A model generated the notes under the pieces. That model saw only the letters and a list, made by a program, of their open reading frames with translations. It was not told the DNA's origin and searched no databases. From positions 1 to 20,114 of IMG/VR virus record IMGVR_UViG_3300017782_000311: a DNA stretch of 20,114 bases; one strand, written 5' to 3'. The DNA is from a virus. The first letter of the stretch is position 1. Each line of letters opens with the position of its first letter. Below are positions 7,917 to 12,007 of this stretch, piece after piece. The translations under genes and the position numbers were made by a program.

Positions 7917-8267
7917 ATGAGCAAGTTATTTGATGAAGCATTAGGTGAATTAATAAAAGAATACAGATTAAAAAAAGGTTTAATACAAGACGATGTTGGT
8001 AGGGTATTAAATGTTTCATACCAACAAATTCAAAAATACGAAAAAGGCATAAATGAATTAAAAGCTAAAAATTTATGTATGATATTTAAAACTTTAGAAA
8101 TTCCACTAACACACTTGGTTGATTTAGTAAAAGCTGCACCAGTAGAAATACTACCAAGTAAAGTAAGAAGTGGTACAAAATTATTAGGTTATTTACAGAC
8201 ACCTGATAATATGGCCTTAGAGCCAGTAACAAGCTCTGTAAAAGTTGATGTTGATACCCAAAGTTAA
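7917..8267 (+). CDS. Cro/CI-type helix-turn-helix regulator
   Basis: The XRE-family HTH lies in residues 8-65: LGELIKEYRLKKGLIQDDVGRVLNVSYQQIQKYEKGINELKAKNL. The helix pair QDDVGRVLNV/SYQQIQKYEKG is the classical recognition unit. The C-terminal 45 residues are short and not a LexA-type peptidase, so it would not respond to DNA damage by self-cleavage. It ends the rightward operon and faces the integrase operon, a usual position for a lysis-lysogeny regulator. A ribosome site (GAAAGGTAAAA) precedes the ATG. Candidate operators are the dyads at 729, 3998 and 10422. Confidence 0.75.
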   Translation: MSKLFDEALGELIKEYRLKKGLIQDDVGRVLNVSYQQIQKYEKGINELKAKNLCMIFKTLEIPLTHLVDLVKAAPVEILPSKVRSGTKLLGYLQTPDNMALEPVTSSVKVDVDTQS

Positions 8268-8389: not shown

Positions 8390-9541
8390 TTAAACAGCTG
8401 TTCCCCAAGCATTAGATGTATCTTTATAGGCTGATATTTTAGGGTCAGGCTTTTTACCATATCTTTTAATGTAATTTTTATAAACAAAGTCCACACTTTT
8501 ATCGCCCATATCTCTACATAAATCTATAGCATTTTCATAAATACCATCATAAGCCCATTTACTAGCAGCCCAATGTCTAAAGCTATAAGTTTTTCTATTA
8601 CTAAAATAATCAATTTTATACTTTTTAGATATAGCTTGTATGGCAATATTTAAGTCTTTAGTCATGCTTTTTAAGTCAATAAAATTACCTTTACCATTTA
8701 AAAACAAATACTCTTGGTTTTTAGGTAAAGTATTAATATAGCTTACAAGCTCATCTTTTAAGTTAGCACTTATAGTAACTGTTCTATGACCCTCATCAGT
8801 TTTAGGGGGTTTTAACTTGTTATCTCTATCAATACTAAAATTGACTTCAAAATGTGGTGTATTGGATAATACTTTTAAATGAGTCCTACTAGCTGCCCTA
8901 GCTTCACTTGGCCTACAAGCAGTATCTACCATTAGCTTAAACATAAGCTGTGTAGGTTTATTAGGCACAAAACTTATTAATTCTTGGATTTTGCTAAATG
9001 ACCAAATATCAAAGTTAATCATATCTCTAGTTGTAGATTTACGACTTTTTTTGAAAAAATCTTTAGCAACAAATGGGTTAGTTCTAATTAATTTTGGTAC
9101 ATTAACATCGTATATAGCTTTAAAAATATGGAAGACTCTTTTAATATAAGAATCAGTAAGGCCATCATTTCTTAATTTGGCTATATAATTTTCAATCCAA
9201 ATGTAATCAATATCTTTAAGATTAACATTGTTAAGCTTGTTTAATATTTGGTGTGTATATATAGATTTACAATCTTTAACATGGCCTATACCTATATCTT
9301 TATTGGTTAGTTGATTGTTTAAAGAATTTACATATTGATTATAGCTGCTAACTAAATCAACTTTATCATTTGTTAAATGATTGTATTTTCGTTCTTGGTG
9401 TTCTTGTTTGGCCTTTTCAACAACTTGCTTTATTTTACTTTGTACGGAGTGGTCTTTTCCGTTTTCTTTCCATTTATAGCACCAAGCCCATTGAGGTTTT
9501 CCTTGTTTGTTAAACCATTTTCTTTTGTGTAAGTCAGCCAT
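8390..9541 (-). CDS. int: tyrosine-recombinase integrase
   Basis: This enzyme catalyses site-specific recombination between phage attP and a host tRNA gene. The N-terminal 60 residues look like an arm-binding domain (KRKWFNKQGKPQWAWCYKW). A SAM-like core-binding domain covers about 65-165. The catalytic domain follows: Arg210 in TACRPSEAR, Lys247 in PPKTDEGHR, Arg322-His323 in YSFRHWAAS, and nucleophile Tyr357 in YKNYIKR. The usual LGH motif reads MGD (346-348), so Asp stands where a His is typical. The 383-residue length is normal. It is translated last in an operon with three small genes (TAATG junction). The core site and arm-like repeats lie about 1 kb away. Confidence 0.92.
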   Translation of the reverse strand: MADLHKRKWFNKQGKPQWAWCYKWKENGKDHSVQSKIKQVVEKAKQEHQERKYNHLTNDKVDLVSSYNQYVNSLNNQLTNKDIGIGHVKDCKSIYTHQILNKLNNVNLKDIDYIWIENYIAKLRNDGLTDSYIKRVFHIFKAIYDVNVPKLIRTNPFVAKDFFKKSRKSTTRDMINFDIWSFSKIQELISFVPNKPTQLMFKLMVDTACRPSEARAASRTHLKVLSNTPHFEVNFSIDRDNKLKPPKTDEGHRTVTISANLKDELVSYINTLPKNQEYLFLNGKGNFIDLKSMTKDLNIAIQAISKKYKIDYFSNRKTYSFRHWAASKWAYDGIYENAIDLCRDMGDKSVDFVYKNYIKRYGKKPDPKISAYKDTSNAWGTAV

Positions 9542-9918
9542 TATCCAAGACCTACTAACTTATCTAATTTAATTTTTTTATCTTCACCATAAATTTTATA
9601 TATTGTGCAAAAGTGCATCCTGTCACCTTTAGGTACAGTTTGAATATCATGGTATATATAGCGACTATGTTTAGAACCAAGAATTTTAACATAATTTTTA
9701 GATTTTAAAATAGCACCTTTATTTTGTTTTAACCATTTTTTTACATATCTTCTTAATGCTGCACCACCATTTTGTAATGGAAATTGTTTTAAATAATGAC
9801 TAACCGATACGTTGCTGCCATCACTAACACAATTAGCAAAAAGAAAACCTTTACTTGCATATTTAGAACCAACATTAGTAATATGAAGTAAATATATTTG
9901 TTTTATTTTTATTGGCAT
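9541..9918 (-). CDS. unknown protein of the integrase operon, 125 residues
   Basis: I do not recognise it. It is basic (pI clearly alkaline by inspection), with strands at the start (KIKQIYLLHITNVG) and a helix RRYVKKWLKQNKG in the middle. No HTH of the usual excisionase type stands out. Its stop overlaps the integrase start (TAATG) and its own start overlaps the previous stop, so production is tied to the integrase. A directionality factor or an accessory DNA-binding protein would fit the position, without direct evidence. Confidence 0.6.
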   Translation of the reverse strand: MPIKIKQIYLLHITNVGSKYASKGFLFANCVSDGSNVSVSHYLKQFPLQNGGAALRRYVKKWLKQNKGAILKSKNYVKILGSKHSRYIYHDIQTVPKGDRMHFCTIYKIYGEDKKIKLDKLVGLG

Positions 9919-10199
9919 TATGTATCTAACCTCCCTGATTTTGGTAAGGTTTTTTCTTCATCTAAAATTTCACATAAAAAACAAAAACATTTGTCAAATT
10001 CTATTCTGTCTTTTTTCTTAATATTAAAGTATTTATATACAATTTCATGAAAATTAGTGTCTTTTAGGTATTTTTGACCTTTCATATCAAAAGTAAAAAT
10101 TGTATTTATTTTTTTAGCAGCTTCAGGGAAAAGCTTTTTTACTATGTTAGTGTCATGCGTATTAACAAATAACAATTCTGTTAAAGGTTTAGTGTTCAT
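9918..10199 (-). CDS. unknown protein of the integrase operon, 93 residues
   Basis: This is a small soluble protein with an N-terminal strand-helix region (ELLFVNTHDTNIVKKLFPEAAKK) and two cysteines in FDKCFCFLCEIL near the end. I do not recognise it. It begins right after the stop of the 68-residue gene and its stop overlaps the next start (TAATG). It may form a complex with its neighbours or act in integration control. Confidence 0.55.
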   Translation of the reverse strand: MNTKPLTELLFVNTHDTNIVKKLFPEAAKKINTIFTFDMKGQKYLKDTNFHEIVYKYFNIKKKDRIEFDKCFCFLCEILDEEKTLPKSGRLDT

Positions 10200-10406
10200 T
10201 TATGCTATTGCCTCTTCAAATTCCAAGTCAAGTTCCGTTTTTTCAAACTTTTCTAATTTTTGTATTTGTTTTTCATTTAAGTGATTTAATGTTTTTGACA
10301 TTACTCCACCATTTTTAAATGCAATAGTACAAAAGTTGCTTGGTCTTTCAAAAATAACATAATCTATTTTTTTTATATCTATTCCTTGTTCTATAAGTGT
10401 TTTCAT
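10200..10406 (-). CDS. first gene of the integrase operon, 68 residues
   Basis: The start at ATG 10406 has the ribosome site AAAAGGATATAAA, identical to that of the early gene at 4037. An upstream ATG at 10424 has no such site. The product has a strand-rich middle (IDYVIFERPSNFCTIAFKNGG) and an acidic helical end (NEKQIQKLEKFEKTELDLEF). The overall layout looks like a small regulator or KTSC-like domain, but I cannot name it with confidence. It is the first product made from the promoter beside attP. Confidence 0.55.
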   Translation of the reverse strand: MKTLIEQGIDIKKIDYVIFERPSNFCTIAFKNGGVMSKTLNHLNEKQIQKLEKFEKTELDLEFEEAIA

Positions 10407-10421
10407 TTTATATCCTTTTTT

Positions 10422-10470
10422 CATTGTTTATCGATATACAATGAGTAGCAACTTAATTGCAACAGGTCAA
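10422..10470 (-). promoter_or_regulatory. integrase-operon promoter overlapped by a 22-bp palindrome
   Basis: Leftward, TTGCAA (10462-10457), 17 bp, GTATAT (10439-10434) fit a sigma-70 promoter. TTGACC (10470-10465), 17 bp, TACTCA is a second possible pairing. The -10 and expected start lie inside a near-perfect palindrome at 10422-10443 with outer arms CATTGT and ACAATG and centre ATCGAT; only one base pair of the 22-bp dyad is off. This is the layout of a repressor operator. Confidence 0.6.
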
Positions 10471-10498: not shown

Positions 10499-10530
10499 TT
10501 TGCACTACTATTTGCACTAGATTTGCACTA
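10499..10530. repeat. three phased TTTGCACTA repeats, attP arm
   Basis: Exact copies of TTTGCACTA begin at 10499, 10511 and 10522, so the spacing is 12 and 11 bp, about one DNA turn. They lie 94 bp left of the tRNA-like core. Phased direct repeats beside a core site are typical of integrase arm-binding sites. Confidence 0.65.
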
Positions 10531-10571
10531 AAGGCAGTTGAAATTTACAATTCAAGCTTTAGAATAGGCAT

Positions 10572-10610
10572 AAAAAAAGTGGCTCTTACAACGAAACTGT
10601 TGTAAAAGCC
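10572..10610 (-). terminator. hairpin terminator ending the leftward late operon
   Basis: GGCT plus TTACAAC (10581-10592) pair with GTTGTAA plus AGCC (10599-10610), with one mismatch and the 6-nt loop GAAACT. Read leftward the stem is followed by AC and seven T, a strong Rho-independent terminator. Read rightward it is followed by TATATATATTTTT, so it may work in both directions. It lies between the attP arm repeats and the core, and would shield the integrase promoter from late transcription. Confidence 0.7.
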
Positions 10611-10623
10611 TATATATATTTTT

Positions 10624-10668
10624 GCCCTTATAGCTCAATTGGTAGAGCAATTGATTTGTAATCAATAG
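10624..10668 (+). other. attP: attP core: 5' half of tRNA-Thr(UGU)
   Basis: This segment folds as the first part of a tRNA: acceptor 5' strand GCCCTTA, D-arm GCTC-AATTGGTA-GAGC, anticodon arm ATTGA-TTTGTAA-TCAAT with anticodon TGT, then AG. The sequence stops resembling a tRNA right after the anticodon arm, and no T-arm or acceptor 3' strand follows. It is therefore not a functional gene. It is the identity segment used for integration into a host tRNA-Thr gene. Confidence 0.85.
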
Positions 10669-10844
10669 AACTACCTAATTTTACTTTATTTTTTACTGTT
10701 TGCACTACACAAGCACTATAGCTAATAAATTATATGTAAACTTATTAGCAACATAGTGCATGATATTTACCCACCCATATCCCTGTGGTTACCCCACAAC
10801 TTAATCAATCAGTATGAAAATACTTTAGATTGATTCCAAACTGT
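10669..10844. promoter_or_regulatory. right flank of attP with arm repeats and a stem-loop
   Basis: I see no gene between the core and the first basic-protein gene. TTTGCACTA is at 10699-10707, a partial copy, GCACTA, at 10713-10718 in the same 11-bp phase, and an inverted TAGTGCA at 10754-10760. At 10803-10835, AATCAATC, AGTAT, loop GAAA, ATACT and GATTGATT make a two-part stem-loop just downstream of the last late gene. It lacks a T-run and may protect the 3' end of the message rather than end transcription. Confidence 0.55.
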
Positions 10845-11142: not shown

Positions 11143-11406
11143 TCAGCATTTCCATTTTCTTAATGCTTTATTAATTCTTGAATTTGGATCTCTAGCTGTT
11201 TTTGCAGAGGTAAGTTTTTTCTTCATACCTAACATTCTCAAACAAAAGCTTTTACGTCTTTTAGCTGCTTTAGATCCTTTTTTTACTTTACCAGTAACAG
11301 CCATTTTTAATTTGCTACCAGGATTCTCTCTTCTATATTTAGCTACACCTTTAGCAGTTAAACCACCTGACCTAGATTTATGAACACCTAGTTTGTAGCC
11401 TTTCAT
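11143..11406 (-). CDS. basic protein with DUF6321-like sequence, 87 residues
   Basis: The protein matches the pattern I know as DUF6321: a SGGLTAKGVAKYRRENPGSKL start, AVTGKVKKGSKAAKRRKSFC in the middle and DPNSRINKALRKW at the end. Twenty-nine of 87 residues are Lys or Arg. Family function is unknown. It is widespread in marine phages of T7-like and other types. It starts by TAATG overlap with the exported protein upstream and is followed after 41 nt by the AT-hook gene. The two-Cys pattern (Cys55, Cys87) is not a clear metal site. Confidence 0.72.
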   Translation of the reverse strand: MKGYKLGVHKSRSGGLTAKGVAKYRRENPGSKLKMAVTGKVKKGSKAAKRRKSFCLRMLGMKKKLTSAKTARDPNSRINKALRKWKC

Positions 11407-11630: not shown

Positions 11631-12007
11631 TTTTTCTTAAACAAGTCCAATCCTGGCTTCAAACCATAAATACTTCCAAAAATTCCAACTGTGAGCCAAA
11701 CATACCAGTCAGGCAAGTTGTTAAAGTACTCAAAGAATAAATCTAATTTTTGTTGTGCGTCAGGCTGTCCGCTAAATACAGAATAGGCTATAACTAGAAT
11801 TGGTAAAATTACAATCGCCAAAACTATTTCATCTTTTATAGAACCAGCTTGTGCATCTAATGTACGAACTTTAAAATCAACTTCACCTTTTGCCATTTTT
11901 TCTGCATGATTTCTATGTGCTAAACTTTCTAGTTGTTCAGCCTCTTTTTTATTTTTATATACAGCTGCACCTGTCTTTACAGCCATGCCAATTAAATTAA
12001 ACCACAT
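11627..12007 (-). CDS. holin, GTA-type three-helix family
   Basis: This protein probably forms the inner-membrane lesions that let the endolysin reach the wall. It has an amphipathic N terminus, a charged linker, then GSIKDEIVLAIVILPILVIAYSVFSG (membrane segment about 61-78) and PDWYVWLTVGIFGSIYGLKPG (about 101-118). The KDE entry to the first segment and the WY entry to the last are seen in the holin group first described in gene transfer agents. The basic C terminus (LFKKK) would stay inside. It is directly downstream of the endolysin, one base apart. Confidence 0.68.
   Translation of the reverse strand: MWFNLIGMAVKTGAAVYKNKKEAEQLESLAHRNHAEKMAKGEVDFKVRTLDAQAGSIKDEIVLAIVILPILVIAYSVFSGQPDAQQKLDLFFEYFNNLPDWYVWLTVGIFGSIYGLKPGLDLFKKK

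Follow-up and report, generated by a model that had tools for sequence, protein, structure and literature searches.

A tRNA-Thr half beside an integrase gene

In this work we present the analysis of a 45-base segment of the virus record IMGVR_UViG_3300017782_000311, which was examined over its whole length of 20,114 bases (the window). The segment, GCCCTTATAGCTCAATTGGTAGAGCAATTGATTTGTAATCAATAG, lies at positions 10624-10668 on the plus strand and occurs once in the window. Exact reading showed it to correspond to positions 1-45 of tRNA-Thr(UGU), that is the acceptor 5' strand, the D-arm and the anticodon arm with TGT, just as an original prediction made from the sequence alone had described it. 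It is very probably the core of the attP (phage attachment) site of a temperate-type SAR11 phage, which would integrate into tRNA-Thr(UGU) by way of the 5' half of the gene and would drive the rebuilt gene from its own DNA.

The occurrence of a tRNA-Thr(UGU) 5' half without a 3' half at this place is confirmed. Chance cannot reasonably account for a near match of 45 bases (one mismatch to SAR11 tRNA-Thr); ARAGORN called no tRNA gene in the window, and neither this search nor exact reading revealed any 3' half. The Rfam tRNA model (E 0.0099) aligned properly with the 5' part only, leaving mismatched acceptor pairs and a long filler, which together with the ARAGORN result ruled out a whole tRNA gene; a tRNA 3' half was ruled out by BLAST against 645 tRNAs. 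Identity had been predicted to stop right after the anticodon arm. The restriction to the 5' half stood, while the match was found to extend two bases further, over AG of the variable loop, with non-tRNA sequence following. The identical 45 bases are present in five further IMG/VR contigs, and the 3' flanks have diverged between lineages.

A tyrosine-recombinase integrase of 383 amino acids (phrog_1 of PHROGs, E 3.9e-27; Pfam PF00589, E 2e-4) is encoded to the left of the core on the minus strand (8390-9541), its start being 1,083 bases away. Residues R210, R322, H323 and Y357 are invariant in an alignment of six integrases. The segment is thus intergenic, outside the integrase gene, which points away from it. 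Five exact copies of the repeat TTTGCACTA occur in the window, and four of them, all on the plus strand, flank the core: at 10499-10507, 10511-10519 and 10522-10530 (125, 113 and 102 bases before it) and at 10699-10707 (75 bases after its start). In the lineages L025 and L021 the repeats stand at -114, -103, +75 (with one mismatch) and +87, and other lineages carry different repeats, ACTTATAA and TTGTATTC, at comparable places (by eye). We regard the flanking repeats as putative arm sites of the integrase, on the model of phage lambda. Because such repeats surround the core and a tyrosine integrase gene lies 1.1 kb away, 10624-10668 reads as attP.

A search with the alignment of the six integrases yielded 21 related IMG/VR contigs. 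The tRNA-Thr 5' half is present in 18 of them and a 3' half in none; four of the 18 had already been identified, 11 were recognized by BLAST against the 645 tRNAs and three separately. In L271-L273 BLAST covers positions 16-44, and the first 15 bases were assigned by eye on account of one extra D-loop base. The half ends at tRNA position 41 to 45 in these relatives, many of which are near copies, so that about seven attP regions can be distinguished by eye. Between the left-hand repeats and the core of the window lies a hairpin (10581-10610, minus strand) with a seven-T tail, recognized in a terminator scan as a leftward intrinsic terminator and likewise present in L025 and L021; it separates the leftward genes on the right from the integrase region.

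Junctions with host tRNA-Thr genes

From the observed sequence, its conservation, the junction arithmetic and same-mode junctions of other SAR11 elements we infer the recombination, the crossover point and the promoter activity as follows. The integrase would recombine the core with the host tRNA-Thr(UGU) gene, strand exchange taking place within the anticodon stem-loop. With positions 1-45 on the phage side, one junction would retain the host promoter in front of a broken 5' half; at the other, phage left-flank DNA with its 5' half would be followed by the 3' half of the host gene, and together they would make up a complete tRNA-Thr. Transcription of the rebuilt gene would then start in phage DNA, the likeliest source being a promoter that reads rightward from the interval separating the left arm repeats from the core.

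When the phage left flank and core were joined to the host 3' half of three alleles (L137, L138 and L121), ARAGORN called tRNA-Thr(tgt) in all three, and no tRNA at the reciprocal junction of any; in silico the intact tRNA is confined to the junction that lacks the host promoter. The position of the intact gene behind phage DNA, as originally proposed, agrees with this test and with the SAR11 junctions described below.

A relaxed scan of genome contigs gave at least 119 tRNA-Thr loci, of which 93, titled Pelagibacteraceae, Pelagibacterales or Pelagibacter, were kept; 26 of the 119 listed loci had other record titles and were dropped before counting. The closest SAR11 alleles among the matches listed differ from the core by one acceptor-stem base (GCCCTCA in at least 19 loci, GCCCCTA with AATTGG in at least 5), and sister-lineage cores, GCCCTTG with CAGTTGG or CAGCTGG, have the same sequence as common SAR11 alleles among these matches. 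Judging from the sequence, T5 and T6 of the phage core could form G-U pairs with both host 3' strands.

In 74 of the 93 loci tRNA-Thr follows within 182 bases of a methyltransferase gene, which we take to be rlmB-like (the host-gene names EF-Tu and FkbM are likewise putative). In nine loci it is displaced by 1.3-5.6 kb, and in ten the methyltransferase falls outside the sequence piece. Four loci contain a 5' half without a 3' half: in L140 and L167 it carries two mismatches in each case and occupies the original site behind the methyltransferase, in L199 it lies further along, and the L197 locus is such a half itself. A fifth case, the genome G114, is the only one of 397 genomes matched by the exact half pattern and consists of host upstream sequence, the 5' half, foreign DNA and the intact gene 2.6 kb on. 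An intact tRNA-Thr lies 2.0-4.5 kb beyond the displaced 5' half in G114, L140, L167 and L199; no half remnant was found in the displaced loci L128, L137, L162, L176, L189 and L224.

As a control, 3' halves were counted in the same loci. There are 26 copies outside intact tRNAs, distributed over 21 of the 93 loci (the L197 row is omitted, the pattern having matched the half gene there), and 24 exact copies start at tRNA position 23-30. The anticodon stem-loop is therefore shared by the 5' and 3' modes, as would be expected if the crossover took place in it. At SAR11 tRNA-Thr the 3' mode was met more often (21 against 4 loci), in line with its description as the usual one, yet the 5' mode is real. 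Prophage junctions at tRNA-Thr, named beforehand as a check, were thus found in part: the 5'-half junctions stem from other elements, and none among the 397 genomes was identified as belonging to the window phage.

Two further arrangements were noticed in these genomes. In L127, L133, L135 and 18 more loci, well-kept tRNA-Thr 3'-half copies, some of them paired, lie 0.8-6.4 kb downstream of the intact gene and are probably tandem 3'-mode islands. On contig C16 of G114 (L265/L266), tandem tRNA-Leu(TAA) 5' halves are located at 11665, 13689, 19241 and 22188, ahead of the intact gene at 32391; about 75 bases upstream of each are nearly identical, and the last unit contains integrase-like and primase-like genes. 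This array looks like stacked 5'-mode elements, each with a promoter and a half tRNA.

Promoter region and rival explanations

Since phage DNA would precede the rebuilt tRNA, the phage would have to supply its promoter, as far as can be judged from the sequence. The nearest listed rightward open reading frame (ORF) able to read into it, encoding a helix-turn-helix (HTH) protein (7917-8267, Pfam search), is 2.4 kb off with the hairpin between, so that the tRNA would be silent unless a promoter lies close by. Two options, alone or combined, can be pointed out for such a promoter. One is the candidate TTGAAA-16-TAGAAT at 10538-10565 (plus strand, 10 of 12 consensus bases), which faces the tRNA half and has counterparts in L021 (TTGAAA-17-TATAAT, 11/12) and L025 (TTGAAA-17-TATAAC, by eye). 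The other is the AT-rich spacer between hairpin and tRNA, TATATATATTTTT (10611-10623, plus strand), a possible -10 region: core-bearing lineages have a -10-like stretch of TATATA, TATTAT or TATAAG here, and their contigs show TATATA, TATTAT or TATATATAAG after the hairpin stem and then the tRNA half. In the core-less relatives L274, L279 and L280 a T run follows the stem directly, as in a two-way terminator.

Promoter scores were compared with shuffled sequences. Four promoter-like sites were counted in the region, which does not exceed shuffles (3.0, standard deviation 1.8). Within 80 bases of the core, the best scores of L021 and L025 were matched by 246 and 242 of 300 shuffles; among sister lineages, for L257, L261 and L282 (TTGAAA-17-TATAAG, 10/12) 6 to 13 of 300 were as good, for L259, L256, L275 and L263 (9/12) 54 to 88, and for L271 (8/12) 213.

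Several results weigh against a phage that integrates in the 5' mode and drives the tRNA itself. In the 80 bases before the core of the window the best promoter score is 8/12, and 245 of 300 shuffles did as well. The upstream regions of 92 host tRNA-Thr genes do not beat shuffles either, one shuffle being equal in 61 of 92; because even these fail, consensus scoring is without power in such AT-rich DNA. The PF00589 match of the integrase is under the Pfam cut-off, and the three core-less contigs among the 21 relatives possess the integrase and the hairpin. No exact host counterpart of the 45-mer, expected in tRNA-Thr(UGU) genes, was present in the scanned genome contigs, the closest listed alleles being those one base off. 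Finally, the integrase of the window phage was found in none of the 397 genomes of the order and no integrated copy was seen; the one weak match (G140, E 3.1e-4) is close to a complete tRNA-Arg.

The lack of lysogens of the window phage among these genomes would also suit a relic, that is a phage-borne tRNA-Thr gene now reduced to its 5' half and not involved in integration, and whole tRNA-Thr genes do occur in many phage contigs. A relic would be expected to drift, whereas the same 5' segment was kept in 18 of 21 integrase relatives, ending within four bases of one another and having lineage-specific repeats on both sides, which makes this origin very unlikely. Strong conservation, together with a promoter-like site and a hairpin just upstream, could also mean that the phage transcribes the half independently, as a tRNA 5'-half decoy, integration being secondary or absent. 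The end points, however, fit a crossover in the anticodon stem-loop, arm repeats flank the core and host genes with matching 5'-half junctions exist, so a decoy is likewise very unlikely.

A real attP used for rare and transient integration only, without stable lysogens, as described for T7-like cyanophages, is a possibility to be taken seriously, if still the less probable course; expression of the tRNA would then not need to be high. The absence of the integrase from the genomes of the order is consistent with it, and passages of PMC8776855 report integration without lysogeny. On the other side, genome sampling is thin for any single phage, the HTH protein is a candidate repressor, and the conserved flanks suggest selection on expression. 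Taken together, arm-like repeats, conservation in the relatives, 5'-half junctions in SAR11 genomes and the tRNA called when the phage left flank and core were joined to a host 3' half support the interpretation as attP with a 5' half and with a rebuilt tRNA behind phage DNA.

A more far-reaching proposal, which we consider rather unlikely, is that of promoter capture: an essential host tRNA-Thr would come under a phage promoter beside the integrase arm sites, lysogens would depend on a phage-controlled tRNA, and SAR11 tRNA-Thr would attract elements on both sides, as a hot spot with 5'-mode elements accumulating upstream and replacing the promoter time after time, and with 3'-mode elements accumulating downstream.

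The cost of 5'-half integration, loss of the host tRNA promoter, is seldom examined. The phage lineage and its relatives keep the 5'-half geometry consistently, SAR11 genomes use tRNA-Thr in both modes, and the three core-less relatives are natural controls for the flanking promoter region. This opens to experiment the question of how a phage maintains an essential tRNA once its promoter is lost, in hosts among the most abundant of the sea.

As for the neighbouring genes, three small ORFs on the minus strand (9541-9918, 9918-10199 and 10200-10424) lie between integrase and attP; none matched a Pfam or PHROGs family at E 0.01, and at a guess one may encode an excisionase. An MT-A70 family methyltransferase is encoded at 2302-2913 (Pfam PF05063, E 2e-27). 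A DUF6321 protein (11143-11406, Pfam E 4e-20) is encoded where the DNA shows short matches to many marine phages.

Comparison with known systems

Neither the integrase nor the 841- and 310-amino-acid proteins of the window had a match in the phage collection (tblastn), and these proteins led to no cultured relative. The ordinary 3'-half integration into tRNA genes is alike in its tyrosine integrase and a crossover near the anticodon; it differs in that the 3' half is carried and the host promoter kept. In the mycobacteriophage tRNA-dependent lysogeny, as described in passages of PMC10865867, the phage likewise has to make good a tRNA gene that its integration has disrupted. In those phages the loss is complemented by a second, complete tRNA gene, while here the junction itself would rebuild the gene; ARAGORN found no such separate gene in the window, which may be a fragment.

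Closer in geometry are the T7-like cyanophages (P-SSP7, S-TIP37 and relatives), which likewise carry a 5' tRNA half; we confirmed the halves of P-SSP7 and S-CBP1 in their sequences. According to passages of PMC8776855, attP motifs of T7-like cyanophages match the first half of tRNA-Leu, and integration was detected by polymerase chain reaction; these passages mention no promoter for the rebuilt tRNA. They differ from the window phage in the tRNA-Leu target, in an attP downstream of int and in being T7-like phages. The T7-like pelagiphages HTVC109P, HTVC309P and HTVC121P are SAR11 phages with 5' tRNA halves beside int, but belong to another phage group with other integrases and tRNAs. In HTVC109P the half covers tRNA-Leu positions 3-42, in HTVC309P positions 6-42 of the best tRNA match (Arg type by eye), and in HTVC121P a Cys-type half was recognized by eye only; HTVC011P and HTVC200P have whole tRNA-Leu genes instead of halves. 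When ten phage records were compared with the tRNA set, BLAST found no half in HTVC019P, HTVC111P, HTVC121P and CRP-113. Upstream of the HTVC109P integrase (L249, 292-353) the type II hammerhead ribozyme model gave a match below its threshold (30.5 bits, gathering threshold 37, E 0.025).

For pTN3-like archaeal integrases, passages of PMC8371274 describe use of the 5' half, the tRNA being then expressed from the integrase promoter, and attribute to Williams 2002 that 5'-half integration is seldom met in bacteria; a passage of PMC5495485 adds that the promoter which originally served the tRNA is cut off from the rebuilt gene. As far as these passages go, the use of the 5' half and the severed promoter are common to both systems, the latter as predicted for the window phage; in the archaeal one the integrase gene contains attP and is disrupted, and its promoter drives the tRNA, whereas in the window attP is intergenic. 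No mention of the phage lineage, of the tRNA-Thr target or of the flank comparison was found in the literature searched. The arrangement is real but rare, with precedents in a few other viruses and plasmids, and what is new is the lineage and the target.
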